The translations under genes were made by a program, and so were the position numbers. A model generated the notes under the pieces. It searched no databases. It was given only the letters and a program-made list of their open reading frames with translations, and was not told the origin of the DNA. From NCBI RefSeq assembly GCF_014647195.1, contig NZ_BMOS01000004.1:58012-122011 (forward strand): DNA of 64,000 nucleotides, written 5' to 3'. Positions 331 through 31,035 of the stretch are shown in pieces; the stretch's first letter is position 1; each line of letters opens with the position of its first letter. The stretch comes from Oceanobacillus indicireducens. GTDB lineage: Bacteria > Bacillota > Bacilli > Bacillales > Amphibacillaceae.

Positions 331-789
331 ATCTTTCAGTAACATATAAGCTTATTTTTAATATTTTATATCCCGAATATCTCGGGTGGGAAATTCTTCG
401 TTTTCGTTTTAATTATTGGGTGATTATTTCAAAACGCAGCATGAATCATCGTGTTAATTCAAGAATTTCACTTAACCGCGGTACGTGTTCCACTGGGTGT
501 TCTCTAACTTAAGCAACGCAAGCCCTACCTGCTCTTGCGTCCTTGCGACCCCTTAGTCGCTCCAGTTTGAATAAGCATCTTCAAAAACATTGTAGAATGC
601 CAGAGTGCTTATTTGTTACTCGATTTACTATAATACCATCTTAAAGAATTCTTGTCAATCTTTTTTTGCAAAGAAATGAACTGGGATCCGTTTGTTAATT
701 TATGTTTAGGTTTTATTGGTTGGAATGGATTATTATCTTTATATCAATTAAACTTAGATTACTACATTATACATAGGGGAGGGATCTTT
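331..789. other. Gene-free leader region before the lyase gene
   Basis: I see no convincing gene here. Short open frames occur on both strands but lack a ribosome binding site and any recognisable motif. The lyase reading frame stays open back to a TTG at 652, but that part of the frame is unlike a conserved N-terminus. A TATAAT hexamer lies near 629-634 without a good -35 partner. Confidence 0.5.
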
Positions 790-13678: not shown

Positions 13679-15951
13679 TTAAAATAACTTCATCTGCTCA
13701 GTTAACTTTTCTTGCCCTTCCTTAGGCATTACATAGCCTAAAGCTTTATAGCCCTTCTTCCTATTCTCATACATATTTTCAAATATACCTTCTTTACGGT
13801 CAATATAATCATAGACTTTCACAACTGATTTCTGTTCATGGATACGATGTAATCTTCCGACATACTGTTGCAAAGTACCTTTCCAAGAAAAAGGGAAAAT
13901 TAAAAACAGAGTATCTAGCCGGGGATTATCAAAGCCCTCTCCTATATATTTTCCGGTGGCTATGATGAGACGTTCTTCTTCATCTGGTAACTTATTTAGT
14001 GCATCTAATCTACTTGCTTTCTCTCTGTCACTTAAGTTTCCGGTTAATATAAATAGATTCTTAGTAAAACCCGCAAATTTATCGGCCAGAATTTTCACAT
14101 GGTCCACTCTTTCAGTTAATATGATCGGTGCGGCCCCCTGCTCTAACTCCTTTAGTACATCATTAAATATCATCGTATTTCTTTTTTCGTCCAGTATTAG
14201 TTCCTTATACAGTCCTTCATTCGTATTCCCCTTATCTATTAACTTACTTTTAAACGATGTATAACGGGGAATTAAAATGTGTTTGAATGGGCGAAGTTTT
14301 GATAGATCTTTAGCACTGATTTTATATCTTGTTCGACCTAATTGCATACGCATAATTGCTTCATGTCCGTCTTTACGTTTAGAAGTTGCGGTTAGACCAT
14401 GTACATAAGCTGAATCAAATCGTTTCAATACTTTTTCAAATGTATAAGCTGAAAATGGTGACATTCATCCACAATTATTTGACCATATTTATTTAAATCC
14501 TTTAATTTCTTTTCATCTTTAATTGATTGGATCATTGCTATGTCTATCTTACCTTGACGGGAATTCTTACCACCTCCAATTAATCCAATTTGTTCTGGTT
14601 GTATGTCCAAAAATGCACCTAATTGTTCTCGCCATTGATTCATCAATTGCTTTCGATGAACAATGACTAAAGTATTTACTTTTCTCTCAGCAATAAGTGC
14701 TGCGCCAATTACTGTTTTTCCAAATCCCATTGCCGCTTCCAATATTCCTGTGTTAAATTTAGTCATCGATCCTCCTGTAAAATTTACATCTACTCTACTT
14801 CCCAAATAAGTATTATTAACTAACGTATAGTCGATAGATGCTTTCTTTAACAACTCTTTTAAGTCCTCCAAACAACCTCTTGGCAAAATTAAATAATTAC
14901 CATCTCGCTCAGAGCAATCGATCACTCTAGGAATTCTTTTTGTTGAATGGCGTTTCTTTTCAGCACGATAATAATCTGGGTTACTGAACTTTGCCAATCC
15001 AACTACTTGCTCTAAAATATGTTGTGAGATTTCATTTGTATTAATATAGATCCCATTCGTGCAAATAATGTTTATTTTATTTGAAAGAGGTGCTACGACT
15101 GGTCCTTCTTGAATAAACATATTTTTATTTGAAGAGGTATTGATTAAACTCTGTATTTCTTTTTTACTTATTCTATTCACTTTCGCCAAGTAATCCCATT
15201 GGTCCTTAAACGGATTAAAGTTCTCGTCTATAAACACGCTATTGTGTTCTTTTCGGGATTGGCCTTGTAATGGTAAAGCAATTAAATTACCAAACTTGCC
15301 TTTCGTTAATTCATCCTGATTTGGAAACATGCGATCAAAGGATTTTAATTCTCGTTTATTTCTCCGATCAATAGTATAGGTTAGTAAAAGAGTTCCAAAT
15401 TCCCTAGCCAGTGTTGCCGATATTGGCTCCGTAAAGAAGAACCATACATGACAGCCATTTCCAGAGCGAGAGCGTTCCATATATGCAGGAATGCGAAGTT
15501 GTTTACAGGTGCCAATAAAATGTTTTACATCCTCTTTCCAGTCATTTTTGTCAAAGTCAATTGCAAGAAACCAGCAAGTATTATTTCTTAAAAGAGGGTA
15601 TATACCAAGCGTAAGATCACCGGTTAGATGTCCCTCTATCACCGTTTTAGTTAATGGATAATAAGAATTTGACTTTGAATTCTTAGCAGGTGCATAGCCA
15701 GAATCTCCGTCTTTACTTACCCATCTATAGGCATAAATATCTTTGCGACCTTTAAACAAATTAGAAAACAATTGAATTCTTTCATTCATTTTAGCTTGAA
15801 TCATCGCTTCTTTATTCAGATTCGGTTCTATATGCTGTTTCATATTAGATTGATAGTATTCCACCAGATGCTTTAGTTGCCTATTTTCCTCTTTTAATTC
15901 TCCTACCTCTTTAATCAACCGCTTATTCTCTTGTATAAGTTTACTATCCAT
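13679..15951 (-). pseudogene. Frameshifted helicase-primase (AEP plus DEAD/DEAH helicase, TOTE type)
   Basis: Two frames make one protein of about 757 residues. Residues 1-45 are a coiled coil. Next comes an archaeo-eukaryotic primase-like domain with the metal-site AIDFDKNDW and the nucleotide-site GNGCHVWFFF. A superfamily-2 helicase follows: AAMGFGKTVIGAAL (Walker A), VDECHH (DEAH box), GLTATSKR (motif III) and QYVGRLHRIHEQK (motif VI). This architecture is that of the primase-helicase of TOTE conflict systems, thought to act in defence or mobile-element conflict. One base is missing in the A-run at 14452-14455, straight after the DEAH box, so the first frame ends as a truncated ATPase. 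Restoring one base makes the halves continuous (CHHFSAYTFEKVLKRF). Either a recent mutation or a homopolymer sequencing error. Confidence 0.75.
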
Positions 15952-17419: not shown

Positions 17420-18532
17420 ATGGAATTAACAAAATCACTTCGCCAGTACCCCCTAGAAAGCATCATACACGATACAGTAAGAGACGAGCCTACAGACTAC
17501 AGCAATAACGAATCAGATTTCCAAAGCAACAAAAGATTCAGAGCATTAAAACGGATACCGCTGCCAAGGTTGATGAATTTAAAGATTGATTATGCTTTTA
17601 AGCAACTTTTTGGTATCGAAAAAAACAAACAAATTACCATTGTATTTTTAAATGCTTTTTTACAGGAAACGGGACGAGATCCGATTAAAGACATTACTTT
17701 CAATAATATCGAAGCAGGCGGAGAACATGTCGATGATAAGCAATCAAGACTTGACTTATTAGTCGTCACCACTACTGGTGAAAAAATCAATGTTGAAATT
17801 CAGTTTACCGATCGATATAACATGATTAGACGCTCTATCTATTATTGGTCAGGAATCTACCGCAGCCAGTTGCTTTCGGGAATGGGATACGAAGAGCTAA
17901 GCGATGTTATTTCCATCAACCTGTTGAATTTTAATATTTTTGATCAGACGGAACGGTTCCATACGATGTATCACCTATTTGAGGATGAAGAACAATTCAA
18001 ACTGACAAATGCCATGGAGTTTCACTATATTGAAATGCCGAAACTGTTGAAAGCTTGGAAAGAAGATAAACTGGATCCTTGGAAAGACGTTTTAGCTAGA
18101 TGGCAATTGCTGCTCGGGATGGTTGATCATCGGAATAAAAAATTCTATGAAGATATTTATCATGAATTGGAGGAGATTGCAATGGAAGATAAGACACTTC
18201 AAAAACCGTTTCATAACTGGGAAGAGCTCAGCATGACACCAGAACAGTATTTAGCTTATGAATCTCGCTTAAAGCATATTTTGGATGAAGAAGCGGCAAA
18301 GCGGGAGGCAGAGCTCCGAGCACAGGAAGCAGAGAAAGATGGTATGGAACGTGGCATGAAACGAGGAATGAAACGTGGAATAGAACAGGGAATGGAACGG
18401 GGCGAGGAAAAAGCTAAAAAATCAATAGCCCAACGTCTTCTTTCAGATGGTACAGAAATCCAATACGTAATGAATATAACAGGGCTATCAAAAGAGGAAG
18501 TACTTGAAATTCAAAAAGATATAGCTGAATAA
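17420..18532 (+). CDS. Rpn-family recombination-promoting nuclease / PD-(D/E)XK transposase-like protein
   Basis: 370 residues. The N-terminal two thirds match the Rpn/PDDEXK_2 family: DYAFKQLFG about residue 57, then SRLDLLVVTT and INVEIQFTDRYNMIRRSIYYW. The Asp and the Glu-x-Gln form the nuclease active site. The C-terminus is rich in charged near-repeats (MERGMKRGMKRGIEQGMERG) and ends in a short helical domain, as in family members with variable C-terminal tails. Rpn proteins nick or cut DNA and have been tied to recombination and, in some lineages, to phage defence. AAAGGGA before the ATG and a terminator afterwards show a single-gene unit. Confidence 0.85.
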   Translation: MELTKSLRQYPLESIIHDTVRDEPTDYSNNESDFQSNKRFRALKRIPLPRLMNLKIDYAFKQLFGIEKNKQITIVFLNAFLQETGRDPIKDITFNNIEAGGEHVDDKQSRLDLLVVTTTGEKINVEIQFTDRYNMIRRSIYYWSGIYRSQLLSGMGYEELSDVISINLLNFNIFDQTERFHTMYHLFEDEEQFKLTNAMEFHYIEMPKLLKAWKEDKLDPWKDVLARWQLLLGMVDHRNKKFYEDIYHELEEIAMEDKTLQKPFHNWEELSMTPEQYLAYESRLKHILDEEAAKREAELRAQEAEKDGMERGMKRGMKRGIEQGMERGEEKAKKSIAQRLLSDGTEIQYVMNITGLSKEEVLEIQKDIAE

Positions 18533-19446: not shown

Positions 19447-19551
19447 TATCTTTAGTAACGAAAAGAATACCTTAAAGCATTAGACATCGCTTTAAATCTA
19501 CAAAAAAGAATATATAAATAGCGTCTACAAACCACTTTTAGACGTATCATC

Positions 19552-19592
19552 AGACACCTTTATCTTGGTTGAAAAATCAAGTATAGGTGTCT
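19552..19592. terminator. Imperfect hairpin, possible terminator
   Basis: AGACACC..CTTG pairs with CAAG..GGTGTCT with small bulges. It lacks a clear T-run; it may be the old terminator of the truncated epimerase gene. Confidence 0.35.
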
Positions 19593-19731
19593 TTCGATAT
19601 GCCACTAATTTTGATTCGATATATTAAGCACATTAACACTAAGGCATTATAAAAACTAGTTGAGTGGCCCCAGATGAAACAATTCTCTTCAGATATTATT
19701 CACTAGCTCTTATAAGGTCCTACTTTTCCAT

Positions 19732-20463
19732 TTATAATGCAGCTGCTCCCCCATCAATCGAAATTACCGCTCCATGAATATAAGATGATTCTTCACCTAA
19801 TAAAAATGCTACGACATCCCCTACTTCATGTGGCTGACCTAATCTATCCGTCGGTACTTCTTCGGCCATTGCATCAATCTCTCCCCGTGGGAATGCCATC
19901 GGTATCTTGTTCGTCCCTGGTGCAATCGCATTAATACGGATATTATCCCGGCCATATTCACCAGCAATTGTTTTGGTTAAACCAATAATCGCATGTTTCG
20001 TTGCAGAATAAGCCCCAAGTGTTGGCATGCCGGCCACGCCACCCAAGGAAGCCGTATTCACTATCACGCCACCGCCAGTCTTCAGCATTTCATTCACAAC
20101 AAATTTCAATCCATAGAAAGCACCATTCAAGTTCACATTGACGATGGAATGAAATTCTTCAATCGAGCATTCCAGTGTGCGAACTCCTGAACCAGAGATA
20201 CCTGCATTGTTAAAGAATAAATCTACTCTTCCAAATTTGTCTATTGTCTCGGCAACATAACGCTGAACATCTTCCATCATGCTCACGTCCGCTTCAACAA
20301 AAATTGCTTCCACTCCTAACTCCTCACATAGCCTTACTGTTTCTTCTCCTCTTTCCTTTGACAGATCAACAATAGAAAGGTTTGTTCCTTTCTCCGCAAG
20401 TTTTAAAGCTGTTTCCCTACCAAAGCCACTACCACCACCTGTAATGATTGCTGTTTTTATCAT
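19732..20463 (-). CDS. SDR-family NAD(P)-dependent oxidoreductase
   Basis: 243 residues, classical short-chain dehydrogenase. Cofactor motif TGGGSGFG at about residues 9-16, an acidic residue after beta-2 (SIVDLSKE) favouring NAD, FFNNAGISGSG, active-site serine in TASLGGVAGM, and YSATK with the catalytic Tyr and Lys. The C-terminus GAVISIDGGAAAL is typical. The substrate cannot be read. ACGGAGGTTTTCAT precedes the ATG. It is monocistronic, next to relics of related genes at 18.8 kb. Confidence 0.93.
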   Translation of the reverse strand: MIKTAIITGGGSGFGRETALKLAEKGTNLSIVDLSKERGEETVRLCEELGVEAIFVEADVSMMEDVQRYVAETIDKFGRVDLFFNNAGISGSGVRTLECSIEEFHSIVNVNLNGAFYGLKFVVNEMLKTGGGVIVNTASLGGVAGMPTLGAYSATKHAIIGLTKTIAGEYGRDNIRINAIAPGTNKIPMAFPRGEIDAMAEEVPTDRLGQPHEVGDVVAFLLGEESSYIHGAVISIDGGAAAL

Positions 20464-20642
20464 ATGAAAACCTCCGTTATTATTATTAGTTAAATTTATT
20501 GTGAATTGTTGAACATATAAGTTTTATTATATCATTAACAACTTAAATAATCTATCTCTCTTGTTTGGTTAACTTAGAATTTACTTATTAGAGGCAACCT
20601 ATTCTCCACTGATTCCCACAACCATTCGACAGAATTCGAGTA

Positions 20643-20670
20643 GTGACATATACCTGAACCATGTTAGAAT
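20643..20670 (+). promoter_or_regulatory. Candidate promoter of the Wadjet operon
   Basis: GTGACA (20643-20648), 16-base spacer, TAGAAT (20665-20670), about 30 bases before the jetA start. Confidence 0.45.
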
Positions 20671-20700
20671 AGAACTAACTATGAACCGAGTGGTGATAAT

Positions 20701-22185
20701 ATGTTTAAACGTGTAAAAGAAGCAACTTATTTGACGGCTGAAAAGGCGTGGAGCTACCGGGCAATTCTCCGTTATTTTTTTATTCAGCATGAAAGAATGA
20801 GAGAATTTCTTTTCCCAGAAGAAATCTATGAATACCTTATTCAATATGACGAATTCAAAGACTATCCAATTGAAGCCCTTCACATTGACCTCGACACGCT
20901 GGTGAAATGGGGAAACCTCATAGCTAGACAAGAATTGGGTAAATCGCGAACCGTTGAAGAATTTAAAAAGAAGCGATTTCGTTACCAATCCACACCTTAT
21001 ACCATCGAATTTGAGAGAATGCTCATCCAGCTTGAAGGCATGGGAGAAGTATTTGGCGGCTCTCTTGAAAAATCCCAATTTGAACGCCTTTATCAATCCC
21101 TTGCAAAAATTGAACGTATTATCAAAGGAAACTTAATGGAAAAAAATGAAGAATGCGCTCAACTTTGGGATGATACTCTTTCCTATTTCCGGCAAATTAC
21201 CCAGAACACATCCGACTATATTGCCTACCTAAATAGTGAAGAAGTTGAAGAGCAAATGCAAACGGAAGCTTTTCTCGTTTACAAGGATCAGTTTACTACC
21301 TATTTAAGAGACTTTATTATAGCGCTGCAAGGAACATCCCTGCAAATTCAGGATATTTTACTTGCAATCACAAAAAGTGAACTGCGCGCCTTTCTTCAAA
21401 AGGTCATCCAGCATAAAGATCAAGTTTTCCGCTTTGAGCAAGAACAAGAAGAAACAGATCCATATAAAGAACAGGAGGAAAAATGGGCAAGCATTAAAGA
21501 TTGGTTTCTCGGGAACGAACACGGGGAAAGTCAATACGAAATGTTACAACAACGTACAACCGAATCCATTCGTCGGATTACTCGAGTAGTTCAGCGACTT
21601 GGGGAGAGACATCAATATTTCCGGAGCAGGAAAAAGGATTACCTTCATCTCGCAAAATGGTTTAGCTCATTGGAAGACTTGGAGGAAGCACATCAGCTTT
21701 CCTCTGTAGCCTTTGGTGTCTTACATACTCGTCATTTCCACATCGATCACATCCCAACGGAAAACATTTATACCGACGTCTGGGACGAGGAACCAATGGA
21801 ACACGAAACAAAACCGATCACACGGAACTACCGGGAAAAAACAAGACCTGGTGCAGTTACCAGTAATACCAAAAAGAAAGAAGAATTAAAAAAACAATAT
21901 TTAGAACAGAAGCAACAGGAGAAGAAACTAATCGAACAATATATTGAAGGAAACGAAATCCACATTGAAAATCTTCCGCTTGTTGAATCCCATGTTAGAA
22001 AACTGTTACTCTCCTGGATCGGTAAAGCGATGGTTCGCAAAGATCGGACGATAAAAACAGAGCTTGGTGTAAAGGTACGTGTAGTTATCCGTGATGGTCG
22101 AGTTTTACTACGAGCAAAAGACGGCGTCCTCAAAATGCCTAATGTAACCTTTCAATTTATAGATCTGGAGGGATCAGCATCATGA
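20701..22185 (+). CDS. jetA: Wadjet type II subunit JetA (TIGR02677/DUF2397)
   Basis: 494 residues. The N-terminus (KAWSYRAILRYFFIQHERM) and its winged-helix-like first 120 residues match the DUF2397 kleisin subunit of Wadjet type II. A long helical middle follows, then a charged linker near residues 380-420 (TKKKEELKKQYLEQKQQEKK), and a compact C-terminus. In the family JetA bridges the JetC SMC heads, like MukF, and recruits JetB. GAGTGGTG five bases before the ATG. The gene overlaps jetB by four bases (ATGA). Together jetABCD make an SMC complex that extrudes DNA and cleaves small circular plasmids. Confidence 0.9.
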   Translation: MFKRVKEATYLTAEKAWSYRAILRYFFIQHERMREFLFPEEIYEYLIQYDEFKDYPIEALHIDLDTLVKWGNLIARQELGKSRTVEEFKKKRFRYQSTPYTIEFERMLIQLEGMGEVFGGSLEKSQFERLYQSLAKIERIIKGNLMEKNEECAQLWDDTLSYFRQITQNTSDYIAYLNSEEVEEQMQTEAFLVYKDQFTTYLRDFIIALQGTSLQIQDILLAITKSELRAFLQKVIQHKDQVFRFEQEQEETDPYKEQEEKWASIKDWFLGNEHGESQYEMLQQRTTESIRRITRVVQRLGERHQYFRSRKKDYLHLAKWFSSLEDLEEAHQLSSVAFGVLHTRHFHIDHIPTENIYTDVWDEEPMEHETKPITRNYREKTRPGAVTSNTKKKEELKKQYLEQKQQEKKLIEQYIEGNEIHIENLPLVESHVRKLLLSWIGKAMVRKDRTIKTELGVKVRVVIRDGRVLLRAKDGVLKMPNVTFQFIDLEGSAS

Positions 22186-23333
22186 ATCAGACCGGATTTG
22201 ATGAAGAAACAATTGAAGCTTTAAGCATATTATTTGAACAGTTTTGGGTGTTACGCACGAAAGAACCTGCTACATACCAATTCATCCGTGAACGGGAAAA
22301 AACATTGAAACGATATATTTCCGATAAATTGGGATTTGACTTAATCGTTCACCAACATTTTATCAAATTGGAAAAAATACCAGTTACTCCAAAAGGATGG
22401 ATGGGAATTCAAGATTTTACTGAGCCACTTGATTATGCAATTTTTTGCTGTGGATTGTCTTTCACCGAACAGCGATCCGTTGAGGAGCAATTTTTATTAT
22501 CCGATATTACGGAAGAAATCGAGGATCTCTATCCAGGAGATTTTCCGCTGGATTGGACGAATTATCAGCAGCGTAAATCACTTGTACGTGCACTGAAGAA
22601 AATGGTTGAACTCGATATTATTAAAGTTGTCGATGGCGATATTGAATTGTTTGCAGGTAATGAGGAGCATGAAGTTCTTTATGAAGTGACAGTTTACGCC
22701 CGCTATTTCATGCGCTCCTATCCAGATGATTTGTTCTGCTACCAAACAACAGAGGAAATACTCGAGAGCGAATGGCTGAGACATCAAGATGATGTGCGTC
22801 GTAAACGGGTATACCGGAAACTGCTTTTCTCCCCCGCTGTCTATCGCGAGAGCGAGGAAGATCCTGATTTCGGTTATATCCGGAGCTTCAGAAACAGACT
22901 GCGTGAAGATTTAGAAGCACATACACAGTTTCAACTAGAGGTATTTAAAAATGCAGCCATGCTCGTCATGCCGGAACGAAAACAGCGCTATACCCTATTT
23001 CCCGACCAGAAAGCAATTATGAATGTCGCACTCCATTTTCAAGCGTATCTGCGCGAGAATAGCGAGACTTATTCCATTAATGCACTTGGTGAACTCAAAT
23101 TGACGATGGCAGAATTCAGCCAAATAACAGGAACGGTAAAAGAGATTTACGGACAAGGCTGGAGTAAAAAATACCGGGACATGTCCTATAACCTGATTGC
23201 CGAAGAACTTTTACAGCTCTATAAAGATTGGGAATTAGCGACAGTCGAAGCCGATTCAGACATGATCATATTAAAACCTGCCATTGCAAGAATGGTCGGG
23301 CATTATCCTAAAGACTTCGAGGTGAACAATTAA
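22182..23333 (+). CDS. jetB: Wadjet type II subunit JetB (TIGR02678/DUF2398)
   Basis: 383 residues, the usual length for DUF2398. Recognisable stretches include FEQFWVLRTKEPATYQFIRE, KLEKIPVTPKGWMGIQDF and DYAIFCCGLSFTEQRS, with an RKLLFSPAVYRESEEDPDFG segment in the middle and a winged-helix-like C-terminus. JetB is the MukE-like partner that packs on JetA. GGAGGGA lies within the end of jetA, and the ATGA overlap couples translation. It ends one base before jetC. Confidence 0.9.
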   Translation: MNQTGFDEETIEALSILFEQFWVLRTKEPATYQFIREREKTLKRYISDKLGFDLIVHQHFIKLEKIPVTPKGWMGIQDFTEPLDYAIFCCGLSFTEQRSVEEQFLLSDITEEIEDLYPGDFPLDWTNYQQRKSLVRALKKMVELDIIKVVDGDIELFAGNEEHEVLYEVTVYARYFMRSYPDDLFCYQTTEEILESEWLRHQDDVRRKRVYRKLLFSPAVYRESEEDPDFGYIRSFRNRLREDLEAHTQFQLEVFKNAAMLVMPERKQRYTLFPDQKAIMNVALHFQAYLRENSETYSINALGELKLTMAEFSQITGTVKEIYGQGWSKKYRDMSYNLIAEELLQLYKDWELATVEADSDMIILKPAIARMVGHYPKDFEVNN

Positions 23334-23334
23334 A

Positions 23335-26300
23335 ATGAATAAATGGAAAATGAACCGTGCTGGGTTACTGAATTTCTGGTATTACGATGAAGAAATTTTT
23401 AATTTTTCTAATGGAAAACTATTGCTCCGAGGTAGTAATGGTTCCGGAAAATCCGTGACCATGCAAAGCTTCCTCCCTGTACTTCTTGACGGAAGAACAT
23501 CGCCTGACCGTTTAGATCCATTCGGTTCCAAAGCAAGAAAGATGGAAGATTATCTTTTAGGTGAAAAAGAGATCGTCAATCGGGATGAACGGACCGGCTA
23601 CCTATTTATCGAATTTAAACGGGAGCACACCGAGCAATATTTAACAATTGGGATTGGCTTACAAGCAAAACGCAATAAACAGATGAAATTCTGGGGGTTT
23701 GTCATAAATGATAACCGTAGGATTGCCATCGACTTTCATCTGTATAAATTGGAGCGGAGTGCAGGTGAAGAACATAAACTCCCTCTCTCCCGCGTTGAAC
23801 TCGAAAACCTTCTTCAAGATGGAGGTCATGTTGTACAGACGAAATCAGAATATACGAAGCTCGTAAATAAATATCTATTCAACTTTGAAACAATCGAAGC
23901 TTATGAAGACTTGATTAAACTGCTTATCCAGCTCAGAAGTCCAAAGCTTTCCAAAGACTTTAAACCGACCGTCATCTATGAAATTTTAGAAGCCGCTCTT
24001 CCCCCATTGTCCGACGAAGACCTGCGTCATCTGTCGGATACGATTGAACAGATGGATCAGACCAAACAGCAGATCGAACAACTAGACCGGGAAGCAGCTG
24101 CCATCACCAGCTTAAATAATTTCTATCAAACGTATAATGAATATATACTCGCCGAACAGGCACATGAATATTTACAAGCCGAAAAACGTTTGGCAAAAGA
24201 GCAAGAAAATGAACAGGAAACCAAATTGAAACAAGAACAGCTAATAAATGAAATCGAGCAGCTGGAAGTAGACAGGAAAGAACTAGAATTAAAAAAATCC
24301 ACCTATATGGCGCAAGAAAAGCGATTACGCTCCCATAAAATTTGGAACTTAGAAGAGGAACGTGCGGAAATAGAAAATAAACTTACACAAGAAACTGCGA
24401 TACACCGCAGAAAAACGGATCAACTGCAAACAAGGCGAAATCGAGAGCATAATCTAAGAATAGATTTACAGAAACTAGAAACAACTATTGCAAGTCAAGA
24501 AAAAGACATCAAAGACAAGCTGACCGATCTTGTAAATGACGCGGAAGAAGCTGCGTTTACGGAATCTCATCATATAAATGAACAAGATTTTAAACGTCAC
24601 GGGCAAGCAACCTTTGATTTCAGCTTATGGAAAAAAGAAGCAGGCAACCATTTGTCGAATCTTGAATGGTTAGAAGAGAAACTAAGAGAATTTGAAGCAT
24701 TAAAAGAGAAATACCAAGAAAAAAACAAACAATTGGCAGATGAAAATAAAAAATTGGATGACGCCCTGTATCAAGAACAGGAATGGGTACGACTTTTCGA
24801 AGAGGATAAAGAGATAAAATTGAATGAAATCCACACTTGGGTAAATGAAACATCTTGGCTTGATATTCCAGATGAAGTTATGCAGGAAACTGCTCGTGCG
24901 TTGCAAAGTTTATATGAGGATACCTCCTATGAAACGATAAAGGAACCATTCCGCCAAGCAACATATCAATATGAACAGAGCCAACGAGAAAAACTGTCTG
25001 AGCTTCGTTTCATGCAAAATCAATTAATAGAAGAGCTCGAAGCAAAGGAAGCAGAACTGGCTGAATGGAAGTCGAAAAAAGATCCCGAGCCAGCCACTGA
25101 TCCGTTAACAAAAGAAGCTAGGCAGCAACTAACAGAAATGGGGATTGCCTACTCCCCTTTATACGCAGCAGTTGAATTTCATGATGATGTCGAAGCGTCA
25201 CTTCAGAAGCGGATTGAAGCTGCTTTGATTGATAGTGGTATGCTGAACGCATTGATTGTAGAAAAAAATATCGAAATAAAACATGATAAAGTACTGACTG
25301 CGGATCCGCAGATGATGGCTTACACGCTTGCTAATTATTTAAAACCTGACCTTGATTCAAACAGCAAACTACCAACGAGCTTAGTTGATGATATATTAAG
25401 AAGTATTTTAATCGATGAAAGCGATGAAACTCATTTCTCCGTGGATGAACAGGGTAACTATAAAATAGGACTTCTCAAAGGTCATGCTCTCCCGGTGGAA
25501 AATGTTCGGTATATCGGTAAAAATGCAAGAAAAAGATACCAAGCAGAACAAATCGAACGCATCCAGGAAGAAATCTATGCATTACAAAACGAAAAACAAT
25601 CCCTGGACAGCAGAATCGAACAAATAGAAACAGCTATTAAACAAGCGAGCACGCGACTTGCTGCTTTTCCACCCGACAAAGACTTAGCTGAAAGTTTCAA
25701 CCAGATTAAGGATGTTCGATTAACGATCAATCACCACAATGGACAGATCGCAATATTAACTACTGCAATCCAGACAATATATGCGGATTATACAACTATA
25801 AAACGTACCATTGATGAAAAAACGAGGAGTTATAATTTAGAAGTGAGTCTCTCTTCATTTCAAGAAGCAATCGTTGTAATGAAGCGTTATGAAAAAGATT
25901 TATCCGAAACAGAGAAATCACATATCCAGTACATTAACTTTTCTCTCCAATATCAGGATAAACAAGATCAACTTCGCGAATTGACAGAAGAAATATTGGA
26001 AATTCAAGGAGACATCAACATAGCAGAAGACTTGATTAAAGAGCTCGAAGTAAACTTAAAACAAATCAAACTCGAACTTGAAAAACACGGAGAAATGGAT
26101 ATTCGTAAACAGATCAACGAAGTACAAGACATGTTAAAAGAAATCGATCATGCCCTCGATAAAACGAAGGAAAAGCTGCCGGTTAAACGAACAGAACGAA
26201 AACAGATCGATGAACAGCTCACACATGTCCGACAAACCGTTCAATTCTGGTTGCACCTGAAGGAAACTTGGGAGAAGTCTTTCTTAAGCGAATTGCATCG

Positions 26301-27477
26301 GGAATTCGTACTAACTGGAAATGATCAACCTGCACATGAGGCTGCTAGGAAAGTTACAAACGAATTTGGACATCTTTTAAAAGAGAAAGAACGTCCTAAA
26401 CTTTTGGAACAGCTGACAAAAGAATATTATAAACAGCATGGCGACTTGATGGAATATCGTCTGAACAGCTTCAGTGCACTCTACCAGACACCTGAATGGA
26501 TGAATAACGAGACAAGTGATGAGCAGAAACTTCATATTGATAATTGGAAACAAAAAATGTCCCGGCAGCTTATTGAATTGAATCATCTCGGAAAACAGAT
26601 GAGTCCTTCGATGCTTAAACAGCAAATAGAAATGGAACAAGCTCGTCAAGAAAGCTTCCTTGACGATCAGGACAGAGCACTATATGAAGAAATCCTTTTC
26701 CATACCGTTGGGCAAAAGCTGCGTGCACGAATCCGTCGAGCAGAGCAATGGGTGAAGCAAATGAAAAAATTAATGGAATCTCGCGACACCTCATCCGGCT
26801 TATCCTTCTCTATCCAGTGGAAGCCCCGAACAGCCGATTCGGAGACTGAGATGGATACGGTTGATCTTGTCCATCTACTAAGACAGGATGCCAAGCTTTT
26901 AAAAGAAACAGATAGAGATAAAATTATTATGCACTTTCGCTCCAAAATAGAAAAAGCAAAAGAAGTAGCCGAAAATGAAAATGAATTACAGACATTCCTT
27001 CAAGTGTTGAAAGAAGTGCTTGATTATCGTAAATGGTTCTCCTTTGTTCTCTATTTTCGCCGTGAAGGAGAGAATAAACGTGAACTGACAAATAATCAGT
27101 TTTATAAATTCAGTGGTGGTGAAAAAGCGATGGCAATGTATATTCCTCTGTTCACTGCTTGCTATTCGCGCTACTTGGAGGCTGATCCGGAGGCACCCTA
27201 TATAATATCGTTAGACGAAGCTTTTGCTGGAGTGGACGAAAATAATATTAGGGAAATGTTTGAGATTGTGGAGCAATTAGGTTTTGATTATATGATGAAC
27301 TCGCAAGTGCTTTGGGGAGATTATGATACGATCAGTGAGCTTTCCATTTATGAACTTCTAAGACCGAAGAATGCTGATTTCGTCGGCGTCATGGGCTATT
27401 ACTGGGATGGAAATAAACGCATCGAACTTGATAAAATAGAAACAGATGAAGAAAGCGACATGAAGGTGACACAATGA
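23335..27477 (+). CDS. jetC: Wadjet type II SMC-like ATPase JetC (TIGR02680)
   Basis: 1380 residues with SMC layout. The N-terminal head has Walker A GSNGSGKS at residues 33-40. Two very long coiled coils (about 240-560 and 800-1100) flank a hinge-like globular part around residues 590-760. The C-terminal head has the signature FSGGEKAMAM near 1258 and Walker B IISLDEAFAGVDE near 1291, then a switch-like MMNSQVLWGDY. All ATPase residues are present, so the protein should be active. It powers loop extrusion on plasmid DNA. GAGGTG precedes the start. It overlaps jetD by four bases. Confidence 0.93.
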   Translation: MNKWKMNRAGLLNFWYYDEEIFNFSNGKLLLRGSNGSGKSVTMQSFLPVLLDGRTSPDRLDPFGSKARKMEDYLLGEKEIVNRDERTGYLFIEFKREHTEQYLTIGIGLQAKRNKQMKFWGFVINDNRRIAIDFHLYKLERSAGEEHKLPLSRVELENLLQDGGHVVQTKSEYTKLVNKYLFNFETIEAYEDLIKLLIQLRSPKLSKDFKPTVIYEILEAALPPLSDEDLRHLSDTIEQMDQTKQQIEQLDREAAAITSLNNFYQTYNEYILAEQAHEYLQAEKRLAKEQENEQETKLKQEQLINEIEQLEVDRKELELKKSTYMAQEKRLRSHKIWNLEEERAEIENKLTQETAIHRRKTDQLQTRRNREHNLRIDLQKLETTIASQEKDIKDKLTDLVNDAEEAAFTESHHINEQDFKRHGQATFDFSLWKKEAGNHLSNLEWLEEKLREFEALKEKYQEKNKQLADENKKLDDALYQEQEWVRLFEEDKEIKLNEIHTWVNETSWLDIPDEVMQETARALQSLYEDTSYETIKEPFRQATYQYEQSQREKLSELRFMQNQLIEELEAKEAELAEWKSKKDPEPATDPLTKEARQQLTEMGIAYSPLYAAVEFHDDVEASLQKRIEAALIDSGMLNALIVEKNIEIKHDKVLTADPQMMAYTLANYLKPDLDSNSKLPTSLVDDILRSILIDESDETHFSVDEQGNYKIGLLKGHALPVENVRYIGKNARKRYQAEQIERIQEEIYALQNEKQSLDSRIEQIETAIKQASTRLAAFPPDKDLAESFNQIKDVRLTINHHNGQIAILTTAIQTIYADYTTIKRTIDEKTRSYNLEVSLSSFQEAIVVMKRYEKDLSETEKSHIQYINFSLQYQDKQDQLRELTEEILEIQGDINIAEDLIKELEVNLKQIKLELEKHGEMDIRKQINEVQDMLKEIDHALDKTKEKLPVKRTERKQIDEQLTHVRQTVQFWLHLKETWEKSFLSELHREFVLTGNDQPAHEAARKVTNEFGHLLKEKERPKLLEQLTKEYYKQHGDLMEYRLNSFSALYQTPEWMNNETSDEQKLHIDNWKQKMSRQLIELNHLGKQMSPSMLKQQIEMEQARQESFLDDQDRALYEEILFHTVGQKLRARIRRAEQWVKQMKKLMESRDTSSGLSFSIQWKPRTADSETEMDTVDLVHLLRQDAKLLKETDRDKIIMHFRSKIEKAKEVAENENELQTFLQVLKEVLDYRKWFSFVLYFRREGENKRELTNNQFYKFSGGEKAMAMYIPLFTACYSRYLEADPEAPYIISLDEAFAGVDENNIREMFEIVEQLGFDYMMNSQVLWGDYDTISELSIYELLRPKNADFVGVMGYYWDGNKRIELDKIETDEESDMKVTQ

Positions 27478-28757
27478 TGATGAAAGAAGCTTTAGCTTAT
27501 TTTAGCGACGGAGATCATTTTCGTCGCTTGTTTTCTCTTTTTAAGAAAAAATATGAATCTCTTGGCAGAATTGGCGGTACAGTTAGATTAGAATATTTTT
27601 CAGATGAAGAATTAGATGCACTCGCACGATTTTTAGGTGTAACAGATAAAGAATTAAGAAGGAAGGGCAATGTTTCCCTTGAGAAATTTGAGCAACAGCT
27701 ACAATCAACGAGATTTGAAGGAGTCCATTTAAAAGCGTTACTCGAAGCGTATTTCGGGGAAACCCTTCTTTCAAAAAAGGAAATGAAAGAGAAACAAGAT
27801 GAAGAGACCCGGCAATTTTTCATTCAACTGAATGATAATTTCCCTGCACTACGTGATTGGCTAAACCATGTCAGAAAAAAGCCGGCTGATACATACTGGA
27901 TTTATCGGTTAATAGAAGAGTCTAAACCTCGCTTTATAAAATGGATGGAACGCTTGGAAAAAGCAATTACACATTTACCTGAGCAATATGAACGACTACC
28001 GTTGTTCAGTCAACGTATCACTCGTGATCCACATGCATTTGACCAAAATACAAACTTAGGACGACTGTTTATTCATATGCTGTCCATTTACTCCATGAAC
28101 GACGGGAACGTATTTATTCCATCGACCAGCGAAGGGATAAATGATTTGCTATTATCTCATCGAATTTTAAGGGATGATATAACGAATTATGTTACATGCG
28201 CGAACATCATTGGTGAAACAGAAAGTGGTATTCATCCAATGTGGCAGGCAGCCGCAGAAACACATAGCGTCATGAATGTTCCACTTCGGGAATTAGTCGA
28301 TTTATCACATGCTTACCCAGCTAACCATGGATGCGATGTTTGGATTGTTGAGAACTCGGGTGTCTATTCAAGCTTGCTTGACGAACTTCCAAGTGTTCCA
28401 TTGCTGTGCACGCATGGACAATTTAAATTAGCAGGTCTTGTTCTAATCGACTTACTCGTGCAAGAAGGATGTACAATCCATTATGCAGGTGACATTGATC
28501 CAGAAGGTTTAAATATAGCGGAACGATTATTGCTCCGGCACCCAAGTAATGTGCGGATTTGGAAAATGGATCTGGAATCGTACAAAAAATCGATCACAGA
28601 GGTAGAACTATCCACCGAGCGTATCCAAAAGTTAGCTTCGATCACATCCTCTGCATTAATACCAGTCGCGAATGAATTAAGAAGAAAGAAAAAAGCAGGT
28701 TATCAGGAAGCATTGGTTCCTGATATGGTGCAGGAATTAATGATGTATTTAGGATAG
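27474..28757 (+). CDS. jetD: Wadjet type II nuclease JetD (TIGR02679/DUF2399)
   Basis: 427 residues. The N-terminal half is the DUF3323-like region; the C-terminal half is a Toprim-like nuclease domain, with the acidic motif WIVENSGVYSSL near 290 (catalytic Glu) and HYAGDIDPEGLNIAERLL near 335 (DxD). These metal-binding residues match JetD, the topoisomerase VI-like subunit that cuts DNA once JetABC has stalled on a small circle. The motif residues are intact. It is the last gene of the operon; a strong terminator follows. Confidence 0.9.
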   Translation: MMMKEALAYFSDGDHFRRLFSLFKKKYESLGRIGGTVRLEYFSDEELDALARFLGVTDKELRRKGNVSLEKFEQQLQSTRFEGVHLKALLEAYFGETLLSKKEMKEKQDEETRQFFIQLNDNFPALRDWLNHVRKKPADTYWIYRLIEESKPRFIKWMERLEKAITHLPEQYERLPLFSQRITRDPHAFDQNTNLGRLFIHMLSIYSMNDGNVFIPSTSEGINDLLLSHRILRDDITNYVTCANIIGETESGIHPMWQAAAETHSVMNVPLRELVDLSHAYPANHGCDVWIVENSGVYSSLLDELPSVPLLCTHGQFKLAGLVLIDLLVQEGCTIHYAGDIDPEGLNIAERLLLRHPSNVRIWKMDLESYKKSITEVELSTERIQKLASITSSALIPVANELRRKKKAGYQEALVPDMVQELMMYLG

Positions 28758-28813
28758 AGATTAATTTTTATGGCAGCAAGGATATTTTTAGAGGATAAAT
28801 GATTTTTTCAGGT

Positions 28814-28866
28814 AAAAAAGCTTTCTTTCCAATAGATCTATTACGAACTTGGAAGAAAGCTTTTTT
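28814..28866 (+). terminator. Terminator of the Wadjet operon
   Basis: An arm starting AAAAAAGCTTTC (28814-28832) pairs with 28849-28866 over about 18 bp with a one-base bulge; the right arm ends in six T. It lies 56 bases after jetD. Confidence 0.85.
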
Positions 28867-29000
28867 ACTATTGTTTTTTCTTCTTAAAAATTACTCTACA
28901 TCACTGTACAAGAAGACTTTAAATAATGCTTGATGAGCTTACTATAATAAATGTGCAGCTTTACTGGACGGCGGAATCGAACAAGGAAAGTTTTTCACAA

Positions 29001-29230
29001 ATTGATAAGACCCCTCTGCGTGAACGAACTCTAATCTTAGTTTCTTCGAGGGATTAAACTACCTTTAATTGCATGAATGAACTCTAATCTAGTTTCTTCG
29101 AGGAATTAAAGCACCTCTAATCGACCGAACGATTTCTATGCTGACTTATTCAGGTGATTAGAACCCCTCTAATCAACCGAAATGAAGTCGAATCTAGGAC
29201 AAACGGGCGATTAAAGATGAAACGCTCTAT
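29001..29230. repeat. Degenerate ~52-bp tandem repeat downstream of Wadjet
   Basis: Four units begin at about 29022, 29075, 29127 and 29179, preceded by a half unit. Units 1 and 2 share GAACTCTAATCT and AGTTTCTTCGAGG; later units are more diverged. Each unit ends in a small inverted repeat such as GATTAGA-ACCCC-TCTAATC (29156-29174). No open frame spans the block. Spacing is too regular for chance, but divergence is too high for a recent expansion. Confidence 0.65.
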
Positions 29231-29325
29231 TCTACTCGAAAAAAATCTTGGAATCGCATTCACAATTATAATGAATTACTAGTTTCACTCACTATACCAG
29301 AGGGTTTCTTACTGTAAAAGGTGAA

Positions 29326-29772
29326 TTATTTATTTTCAATAATAACTTTATTCAATTTCATTGTTACTGGGTTCGCAATGGTGTCACCAACGGGACAGGT
29401 TGCTTCGATAAACTCAATGAATTTTTCAACTTTTTCTCGTGGTTCGTCTGTGTCGATATGAATATTATAACGAATTTCTGAATAACCTTTACGAACATCA
29501 GATATCCCCATAAATCCGTCTGTATCAAGGTCACCTTCCAGCTCTACCCAAAGATTATGGAACGTCATATCATGTTTTCCAGCAAACGTTGCGGCGGTAA
29601 TAGCTTGACAAGCACCAAGGGCTCCTAGAATCATTTCCACCGGATTCATTCCCGTATCTGTCCCGCCCAAACTTTTAGGCTCATCAACCGTAATTTCAAA
29701 ATCCCTAGATTTCACCTTCACTTGAACACCTTTTTCCAGATGTGCAGTTGCTTTAAATATACTCTGGGGCAT
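29326..29772 (-). CDS. OsmC-family peroxiredoxin-like protein
   Basis: 148 residues from the ATG at 29772, preceded by AAGGTGG; longer upstream frames have no such site. OsmC fold features: GGTDTGMNPVEMILGALGAC with the first redox cysteine (C55) and ATCPVGDTIANPV with the second (C126). In OsmC/Ohr proteins the cysteine pair reduces organic hydroperoxides using thiols. Whether it is an OsmC, Ohr or YhfA-type member cannot be settled here. Monocistronic; a hairpin at 29881-29917 separates it from the lactonase gene. Confidence 0.88.
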   Translation of the reverse strand: MPQSIFKATAHLEKGVQVKVKSRDFEITVDEPKSLGGTDTGMNPVEMILGALGACQAITAATFAGKHDMTFHNLWVELEGDLDTDGFMGISDVRKGYSEIRYNIHIDTDEPREKVEKFIEFIEATCPVGDTIANPVTMKLNKVIIENK

Positions 29773-29880
29773 GATGATAACCACCTTTTCTTTAATATTT
29801 TTCCTTTCAATTATATTGTACACCTTTTCACATTGATAGTCTGTAGACACATTGTGAAATATTGAACAAAATAATGAAAA

Positions 29881-29917
29881 AGGTAAAAAATCAAATATAA
29901 TACTTGATTTTTTACCT
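29881..29917. terminator. Terminator of the lactonase gene
   Basis: Perfect 14-bp stem AGGTAAAAAATCAA / TTGATTTTTTACCT. Read on the minus strand it follows the lactonase gene at 29998; the T-tract lies within the arm. Confidence 0.75.
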
Positions 29918-29997
29918 CGATTATCATCGGCTGGCATGTTTCCACTTTTTCTTGTCATAATTAGGAAACGTGCCAAGCTTTTTAGTTACGCAATCAA

Positions 29998-31035
29998 TTA
30001 AGCATGCAAGAATTTAACGCATACTGCTTCCGGTGCTTCTACATCTTTCTGCAGTAGAGTTAGTTTTCCTGTTTCGCTATCTCTTTCAAACAATGTTAAT
30101 GTGCCACTTTCCTGGTTTGCAGCTACAATAAATTGCTCACTGGGATCGAGTACAAAATCACGAGGCCAGTTTCCTTCTGTATGTGTATACTTAACCAGCT
30201 CGACCGAATAATCCGCTGCAATTCGGTAAACGGCGATGGAATCATGGCCTCTATTACCTACGTACACAAATTTCCCGTCGGAAGATAAATGGATTGCGCT
30301 TCCTTGGTTATTTTCCGTAAAATCTTCTGGAATTGTTGCTACATACTGGACTTCTTCAAATGATCCCGTATTCTCATCATATTTAAGCACAATAACCTCA
30401 TTGCTTATCTCTGTCATTACATAAGCATAGGGAGCTGTCGGGTGGAATGCAATATGGCGCGGACCACTGCCGGCTTTTACAGTTAACACATTAACTTCTT
30501 GTAATTCATCTCCATTCGGGGAGTAAGTTGTAATCGTATCACTGCCGAGATCCACAACTACAACATATTTCTCATCTGGCGTATATCCTGCAAAGTGGAG
30601 ATGCGGTTTTTCCTGACGCTCATGGGGGCCGCTTCCTTCATGAGTTACAGACTTTGGAGCCTGGATGGAGCCATCTTCGTTCGTGAGGAATGTTTCCACT
30701 TGTTTTGTATGGTAATTCGCCGCGACAACTAAACGGTTCCTACTATCGACACTCACGTGGCAAGGCGGGGCACCAGCTGTTACTTCACTGTTTAATTTTT
30801 CCAAGTTGCCATTTGAAACAGAAAAGGCCGCAATACCTCCCTCCTCACCTTCCTGAGAAACAGCATAAACATAATCATTATTATGACTTACAGCTAAGTA
30901 CGTCGGATTATTCAATTTAACCGCCACTTCTACGTCTGTTATCTTTTTCTGTTCGGTATCCAAGGTGAAACGATAAATTCCTTCACTCGTTTTCTTTGTG
31001 TAACTACCGAGATAACCTGTATATTTTTTGCCCAC
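29998..31035 (-). CDS. Lactonase family protein (6-phosphogluconolactonase/YkgB-like beta-propeller)
   Basis: 345 residues, matching the seven-bladed propeller lactonase family. Motifs are YTGYLGSYTKKTSEGIY at the N-terminus, NPTYLAVSHNNDYVYAV, KPHLHFAGYTPDEKYVVVVD, GPRHIAFHPTAPYAYVMTE and NWPRDFVLDPSEQFIVAANQ. Members hydrolyse 6-phosphogluconolactone in the oxidative pentose phosphate path. The start is GTG with AAGGAGGA upstream. No zwf or gnd is next to it. Confidence 0.88.
   Translation of the reverse strand: MGKKYTGYLGSYTKKTSEGIYRFTLDTEQKKITDVEVAVKLNNPTYLAVSHNNDYVYAVSQEGEEGGIAAFSVSNGNLEKLNSEVTAGAPPCHVSVDSRNRLVVAANYHTKQVETFLTNEDGSIQAPKSVTHEGSGPHERQEKPHLHFAGYTPDEKYVVVVDLGSDTITTYSPNGDELQEVNVLTVKAGSGPRHIAFHPTAPYAYVMTEISNEVIVLKYDENTGSFEEVQYVATIPEDFTENNQGSAIHLSSDGKFVYVGNRGHDSIAVYRIAADYSVELVKYTHTEGNWPRDFVLDPSEQFIVAANQESGTLTLFERDSETGKLTLLQKDVEAPEAVCVKFLHA

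Follow-up and report, generated by a model that had tools for sequence, protein, structure and literature searches.

Does the run of four genes at positions 20701-28757 of the window, the 64,000-nucleotide stretch of Oceanobacillus indicireducens DNA analysed here, encode a complete anti-plasmid system of the Wadjet type II (JetABCD), and would such a system still work in its host? The window corresponds to positions 58012-122011 of contig C4 in the host genome (G000; 3.87 Mb in 89 contigs). The spore-forming halophile way of life suggested by an earlier note on this DNA fits the genus Oceanobacillus.

All genes reside on the forward strand, adjacent and in the order A-B-C-D, the arrangement by which type II Wadjet is recognized. 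jetA (20701-22185, +) codes for a kleisin subunit of 494 aa, jetB (22182-23333, +) for a KITE subunit of 383 aa, jetC (23335-27477, +) for an SMC-like ATPase of 1380 aa, and jetD (27474-28757, +) for a Toprim nuclease of 427 aa. None of the four frames is interrupted or truncated. jetA and jetB, as jetC and jetD, overlap by 4 bases, and a single base separates jetB from jetC, a layout typical of coupled operons. The earlier note had described four coupled genes with the order and sizes of JetABCD type II; every ORF lies where it was placed, and the families match.

The profiles by which this assignment could be checked, TIGR02677-02680 along with PF09660, PF09661 and PF09664, all scored over their cut-offs, which are curated for the TIGR set. 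JetA scored 457.2 bits with PF09660 (DUF2397; cut-off 28.5), 438.5 bits with TIGR02677 (cut-off 165.85; E 3.1e-131), and 737.1 bits with the PADLOC model JetA2. Corresponding values for JetB are 341.3 bits with PF09661 (DUF2398; cut-off 26.9), 295 bits with TIGR02678 (cut-off 124.65; E 8.3e-88), and 509.2 bits with JetB2. JetC was recognized by TIGR02680 (952.8 bits, cut-off 462.85; E 3.5e-286), by JetC2 (1626 bits) and, over its cut-off, by the Pfam model SbcC_Walker_B (83.7 bits). JetD carries both DUF3323 (PF11796, 154.7 bits) and DUF2399 (PF09664, 103.5 bits) over cut-off, is matched by TIGR02679 (233.2 bits, cut-off 196; E 5.1e-69) and JetD2 (511.1 bits), and marginally by the Pfam model JetD_C (22.7 bits vs. 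a cut-off of 22). PADLOC type II models rank first for each of the four proteins. Type I models rank far lower (JetC1, 4.2e-17; JetD1, 5.1e-9), those for JetA and JetB giving no match at E <= 0.001, and among type III models only JetD3 matched, marginally, its JetD counterpart. Type I and type III models are thus outranked by type II models in all four proteins.

JetA, JetB and JetC match one and the same JetABC complex in the PDB, 9qe0/9qe1, almost end to end: residues 2-489 of JetA align to 9qe0_E (E 3.5e-159), residues 5-381 of JetB to 9qe0_D (E 4.2e-135), and residues 3-1364 of JetC to 9qe0_A (E 0). From the title of the structure reference cited in PMC12647877 we infer that this is the complex of Neobacillus vireti; a literature search linking Wadjet with 9QE0 returned nothing. 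JetC features a Walker A motif (GSNGSGKS, residues 33-40), an ABC signature (FSGGEK, from residue 1259), and a Walker B stretch ending with LDEAF (residues 1293-1297). Conservation was monitored in 45 aligned rows, made up by the window protein and by non-redundant sequences of 1300 aa or longer from 65 loci, two loci of the own genome and shorter, split or duplicate genes being excluded. GxNGxGKS is conserved in all 45 rows, as are L1293, D1294, E1295, A1296 and F1297; the signature reads FSGGEK in 43 rows and LSGGQR in the other two.

Close to the N-terminus of JetB lies the tripeptide F6-D7-E8, and FDE is found at the aligned position of the 9qe0 JetB. Out of 49 aligned rows, 41 keep the F, 43 the D and 39 the E, the motif being missing in the three most distant ones (L058, L059, L060). 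The excerpts of PMC10586767 report that in type I Wadjet an N-terminal IFDR motif of JetB contacts JetD, according to cross-linking mass spectrometry. FDE may be the type II counterpart of IFDR, in which case one element would dock and activate JetD in type I as well as in type II, a suggestion we regard as tentative and rather doubtful; if confirmed, the motif would hint that the Wadjet types activate JetD in a common way.

No PDB chain was found for JetD at E <= 0.1, either with the single sequence or with a profile of 39 rows (the window protein plus 38 out of 48 distinct relatives with 400 aa or more). An AlphaFold model built on the same 39-row alignment (mean pLDDT 95.1, pTM 0.78) gave 271 Foldseek matches at E <= 10, nine of which at E <= 0.001. 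The best two PDB entries are JetD-type nucleases, that of Corynebacterium glutamicum (8b7f) and the Pseudomonas aeruginosa JetD (7til, two chains); the structural comparison suggested in the earlier note was carried out on JetD alone. The other matches at E <= 0.001 are five topoisomerase VI chains (9o7o, 9o8p, 2zbk, and 9o0g twice) and a Spo11 chain (8uru). Query-normalised TM-scores range from 0.23 to 0.41 for the nine matches, and from 0.23 to 0.34 for 8b7f and 7til; since these whole-chain values are low, the support for the fold concerns domains, and not a single rigid arrangement. The Toprim residues correspond to E293 and to the stretch D340-x-D342-P-E-G. All 49 rows share E293, and 47 contain DxDPEG, the two exceptions (L037 and L065) probably reflecting broken reading frames; E293, D340 and D342 are invariant in the 39-row alignment. 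The Glu and DxD residues, whose loss in an alignment to type II references would, according to the earlier note, have refuted the type II reading, are thus retained in the comparison with homologous loci, and the claim that Walker A/B, signature and Toprim residues are intact holds in this protein set as well as among relatives.

Upstream of jetA, after a gap of 237 bases, lies a divergent SDR oxidoreductase gene (19732-20463), and downstream of jetD a convergent gene of the OsmC family (29326-29976); because of the orientation of these neighbours, jetABCD most likely forms a transcription unit of its own. The operon had been credited with a private promoter and terminator, and only the latter stood scrutiny. 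An intrinsic terminator is located 3' of jetD (28811-28869, +), as a hairpin with a T run within its 3' arm, followed by T-rich sequence. The fold of 28808-28885 has a free energy of -24.9 kcal/mol (z -4.84), and none of 200 shuffled sequences was as stable; the hairpin is absent from the list produced by a consensus scan. The promoter-like site found 5' of jetA (20643-20670, +) is weak, and consists of GTGACA and TAGAAT spaced by 16 nt, with TG before the second hexamer. Sites of this type are no commoner than expected by chance (22 in the interval 19500-30000 vs. a mean of 28.0 in shuffles), and the call is therefore unproven; by layout alone, a promoter within the 237-base gap is plausible. 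Imperfect direct repeats were noticed past jetD (29017-29141, +), namely one pair of 52 nt (75% alike) and another of 21 nt (90% alike). Each is present in two copies only, the stretch holds no listed ORF of at least 60 aa, and the similarity may be due to chance.

A second Wadjet was sought in the own genome with the jetC protein and with the JetD_C family, and each search returned this operon alone. TIGR02680 scored over cut-off in 28 of 159 genomes of the family, some of the genes being partial or split; in 14 control genomes the single match, in C. glutamicum, fell below cut-off. Within the genus, carriers number three out of 28 genomes, that is, the own genome, Oceanobacillus halophilus (G069; jetC locus L012) and Oceanobacillus senegalensis (G083; L002), coordinates and protein scores agreeing for the latter two, and a weak match below cut-off was found in a further one (G077). 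A quickly built tree of the 45 JetC rows, with SH-aLRT support alone and long branches flagged, places the window protein in a set of 11 rows (support 97), without a settled position inside it. The set also includes JetC from O. senegalensis, Ornithinibacillus halophilus, Allobacillus, Virgibacillus, Gracilibacillus, Amphibacillus and two Carnobacteriaceae; JetC of O. halophilus resides in a different supported clade. As the tree places members of the genus apart and the distribution is patchy, the sequence data fit lateral spread of the operon. Literature on Wadjet in Oceanobacillus was searched, and nothing was found beyond the PADLOC server paper.

Of 34 related loci, 33 have the four jet genes side by side; in the remaining one the contig ends inside jetC. 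Genes broken into two frames were seen for jetC in L021, L023 and L046, and for jetD in L003; three of these loci (L003, L021, L023) are among the 33. The splits may denote repeated loss of the system, or sequencing errors. Genes travelling along with the operon were looked for by clustering ORFs of at least 80 aa from the 34 loci, each taken with at most 10 kb of flank on either side, and with far less where a contig ended, as in L003, L026 and L035. JetA, JetB and JetC were found in 34 loci and JetD in 33; the next cluster spans only seven and, to judge by the opening residues of its first member, resembles a generic ABC-transporter ATPase, and a fifth component was accordingly rejected. To look for a conserved insertion site, nine neighbours in the window were compared with the same loci, and only two gave matches at E <= 1e-5, with 27-41% identity: the SDR protein in L005 and L009, and a Cons_hypoth698 protein in L019. 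At E <= 1e-60 the SDR gene is found in 6 and the lactonase gene in 25 of the 28 genus genomes, own included.

Further genes of the window deserve mention. A TOTE-type primase (AEP-TOTE, 2.7e-88) plus helicase is encoded at 13679-15951 (-) in two overlapping frames of 508 and 261 aa. The gene corresponds to one open frame in the genus mates G069 (771 aa) and G065 (763 aa), its split state here being due either to a frameshift or to an error in sequencing. Between it and the Wadjet operon lies a gene of the PD-(D/E)XK_2 transposase family (17420-18532, +), which we take to be Rpn-like. The two genes and the operon could make up a small defence or mobile cluster; no literature linking Wadjet with TOTE conflict was found. 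Positions 503-590 (+) match the small RNA BsrC of Rfam (71.8 bits vs. a gathering score of 38).

TIGR models, PADLOC type II ranking, alignment to 9qe0/9qe1 and the fold of JetD agree with the type II identity originally proposed, and the region is almost certainly a complete chromosomal JetABCD operon. A Wadjet type II by descent, silent or inactive in its host, would look much the same if the copy had just started to decay, with frames still open; the broken jetC and jetD genes of some relatives, the frame-split TOTE gene nearby and the unproven jetA promoter are in line with such a state, which we nevertheless hold to be improbable, given four open, full-length frames, intact catalytic motifs and a strong terminator past jetD. 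Even less credit, to the point of being hardly tenable, is given to a chromosome-organising SMC complex, similar to MukBEF/MksBEF, in which JetD would be an accessory and defence would play no part. JetC does match the general models SMC_N (Pfam) and SMC_prok_B (NCBIfam), weakly and under their cut-offs; against this role stand the patchy spread in family and genus, neighbourhoods which differ among relatives, and a nuclease gene found alongside in all loci except one. The JetABCD operon is thus read as a defence system which is probably functional.

According to the excerpts of PMC10586767 and PMC12647877, cleavage by JetD follows once JetABC has fully extruded a circular DNA, with no sequence specificity, linear DNA escaping. 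By analogy with these published relatives, extrusion, sensing of size and shape, and cleavage would be carried out by the proteins encoded here. The kleisin JetA, the KITE subunit JetB and the ATPase JetC would assemble into a dimeric loop-extruding motor, able to load on DNA regardless of sequence and to reel it in with ATP; upon full extrusion of a small circle the Toprim nuclease JetD would be activated and the plasmid cut, linear DNA and the chromosome being spared. Excerpts of PMC12287153 indicate that the native Wadjet of Clostridium cellulovorans hinders conjugative plasmid transfer, and homology to the systems studied suggests that the operon should act alike in its host. The host is therefore predicted to resist small circular vectors, a point of relevance to the genetic manipulation of such strains.

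The own genome also hosts a conjugation module (locus L088, contig C10, 3278-14352) with DUF961, FtsK_SpoIIIE, Rep_trans, AAA_10, lysozyme-like/NlpC_P60 and TcpC genes, presumably Tn916/ICEBs1-like, denoting that mobile elements have entered this Wadjet-carrying host. Once circular, it might be targeted by Wadjet, with no contradiction to the Wadjet reading, and would offer a natural test substrate for the system. Rep_1 was found neither in the own genome nor in 14 controls; three genomes of the genus, out of 28, have it, among them a Wadjet carrier (G083, partial match). Rep_trans is found in ten, including the own genome, where the match lies inside the conjugation module on a contig of 133,707 bases, and is missing in the carriers G069 and G083. 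The search for RepA_N was uninformative, no match being found anywhere, controls included; three carriers among 28 genomes are too few to associate replication genes with Wadjet.

The folds matched by the JetD model include, as said, the A subunit of topoisomerase VI and Spo11, from which the window JetD is distinguished because part of a four-gene SMC operon; topoisomerase families were not found among the ten neighbour genes scanned. Wadjet type I/MksBEFG of Escherichia coli GF4-3, P. aeruginosa PA14 and C. glutamicum shares the four-gene logic, described in the excerpts of PMC10586767, and a JetD-like fold, yet the window proteins match type I models weakly (JetC, JetD) or, at E <= 0.001, not at all (JetA, JetB). 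The closest known system is the Wadjet type II of N. vireti (nvJET, 9qe0/9qe1). JetA, JetB and JetC are alike over almost the whole length, and sequence divergence is the only difference in the alignments as displayed, that of JetC over part of its length. Purification, assays and a published structure already exist for a type II Wadjet, the N. vireti complex cleaving naked circular DNA, as stated in the excerpts of PMC12647877. The operon is an ordinary copy of this already described system, and adds nothing to the knowledge of Wadjet itself; it puts on record one more well-formed type II Wadjet, for an Oceanobacillus. As JetABC aligns almost fully with nvJET, a hinge without channel, as reported for the latter, is expected from the sequence here too.
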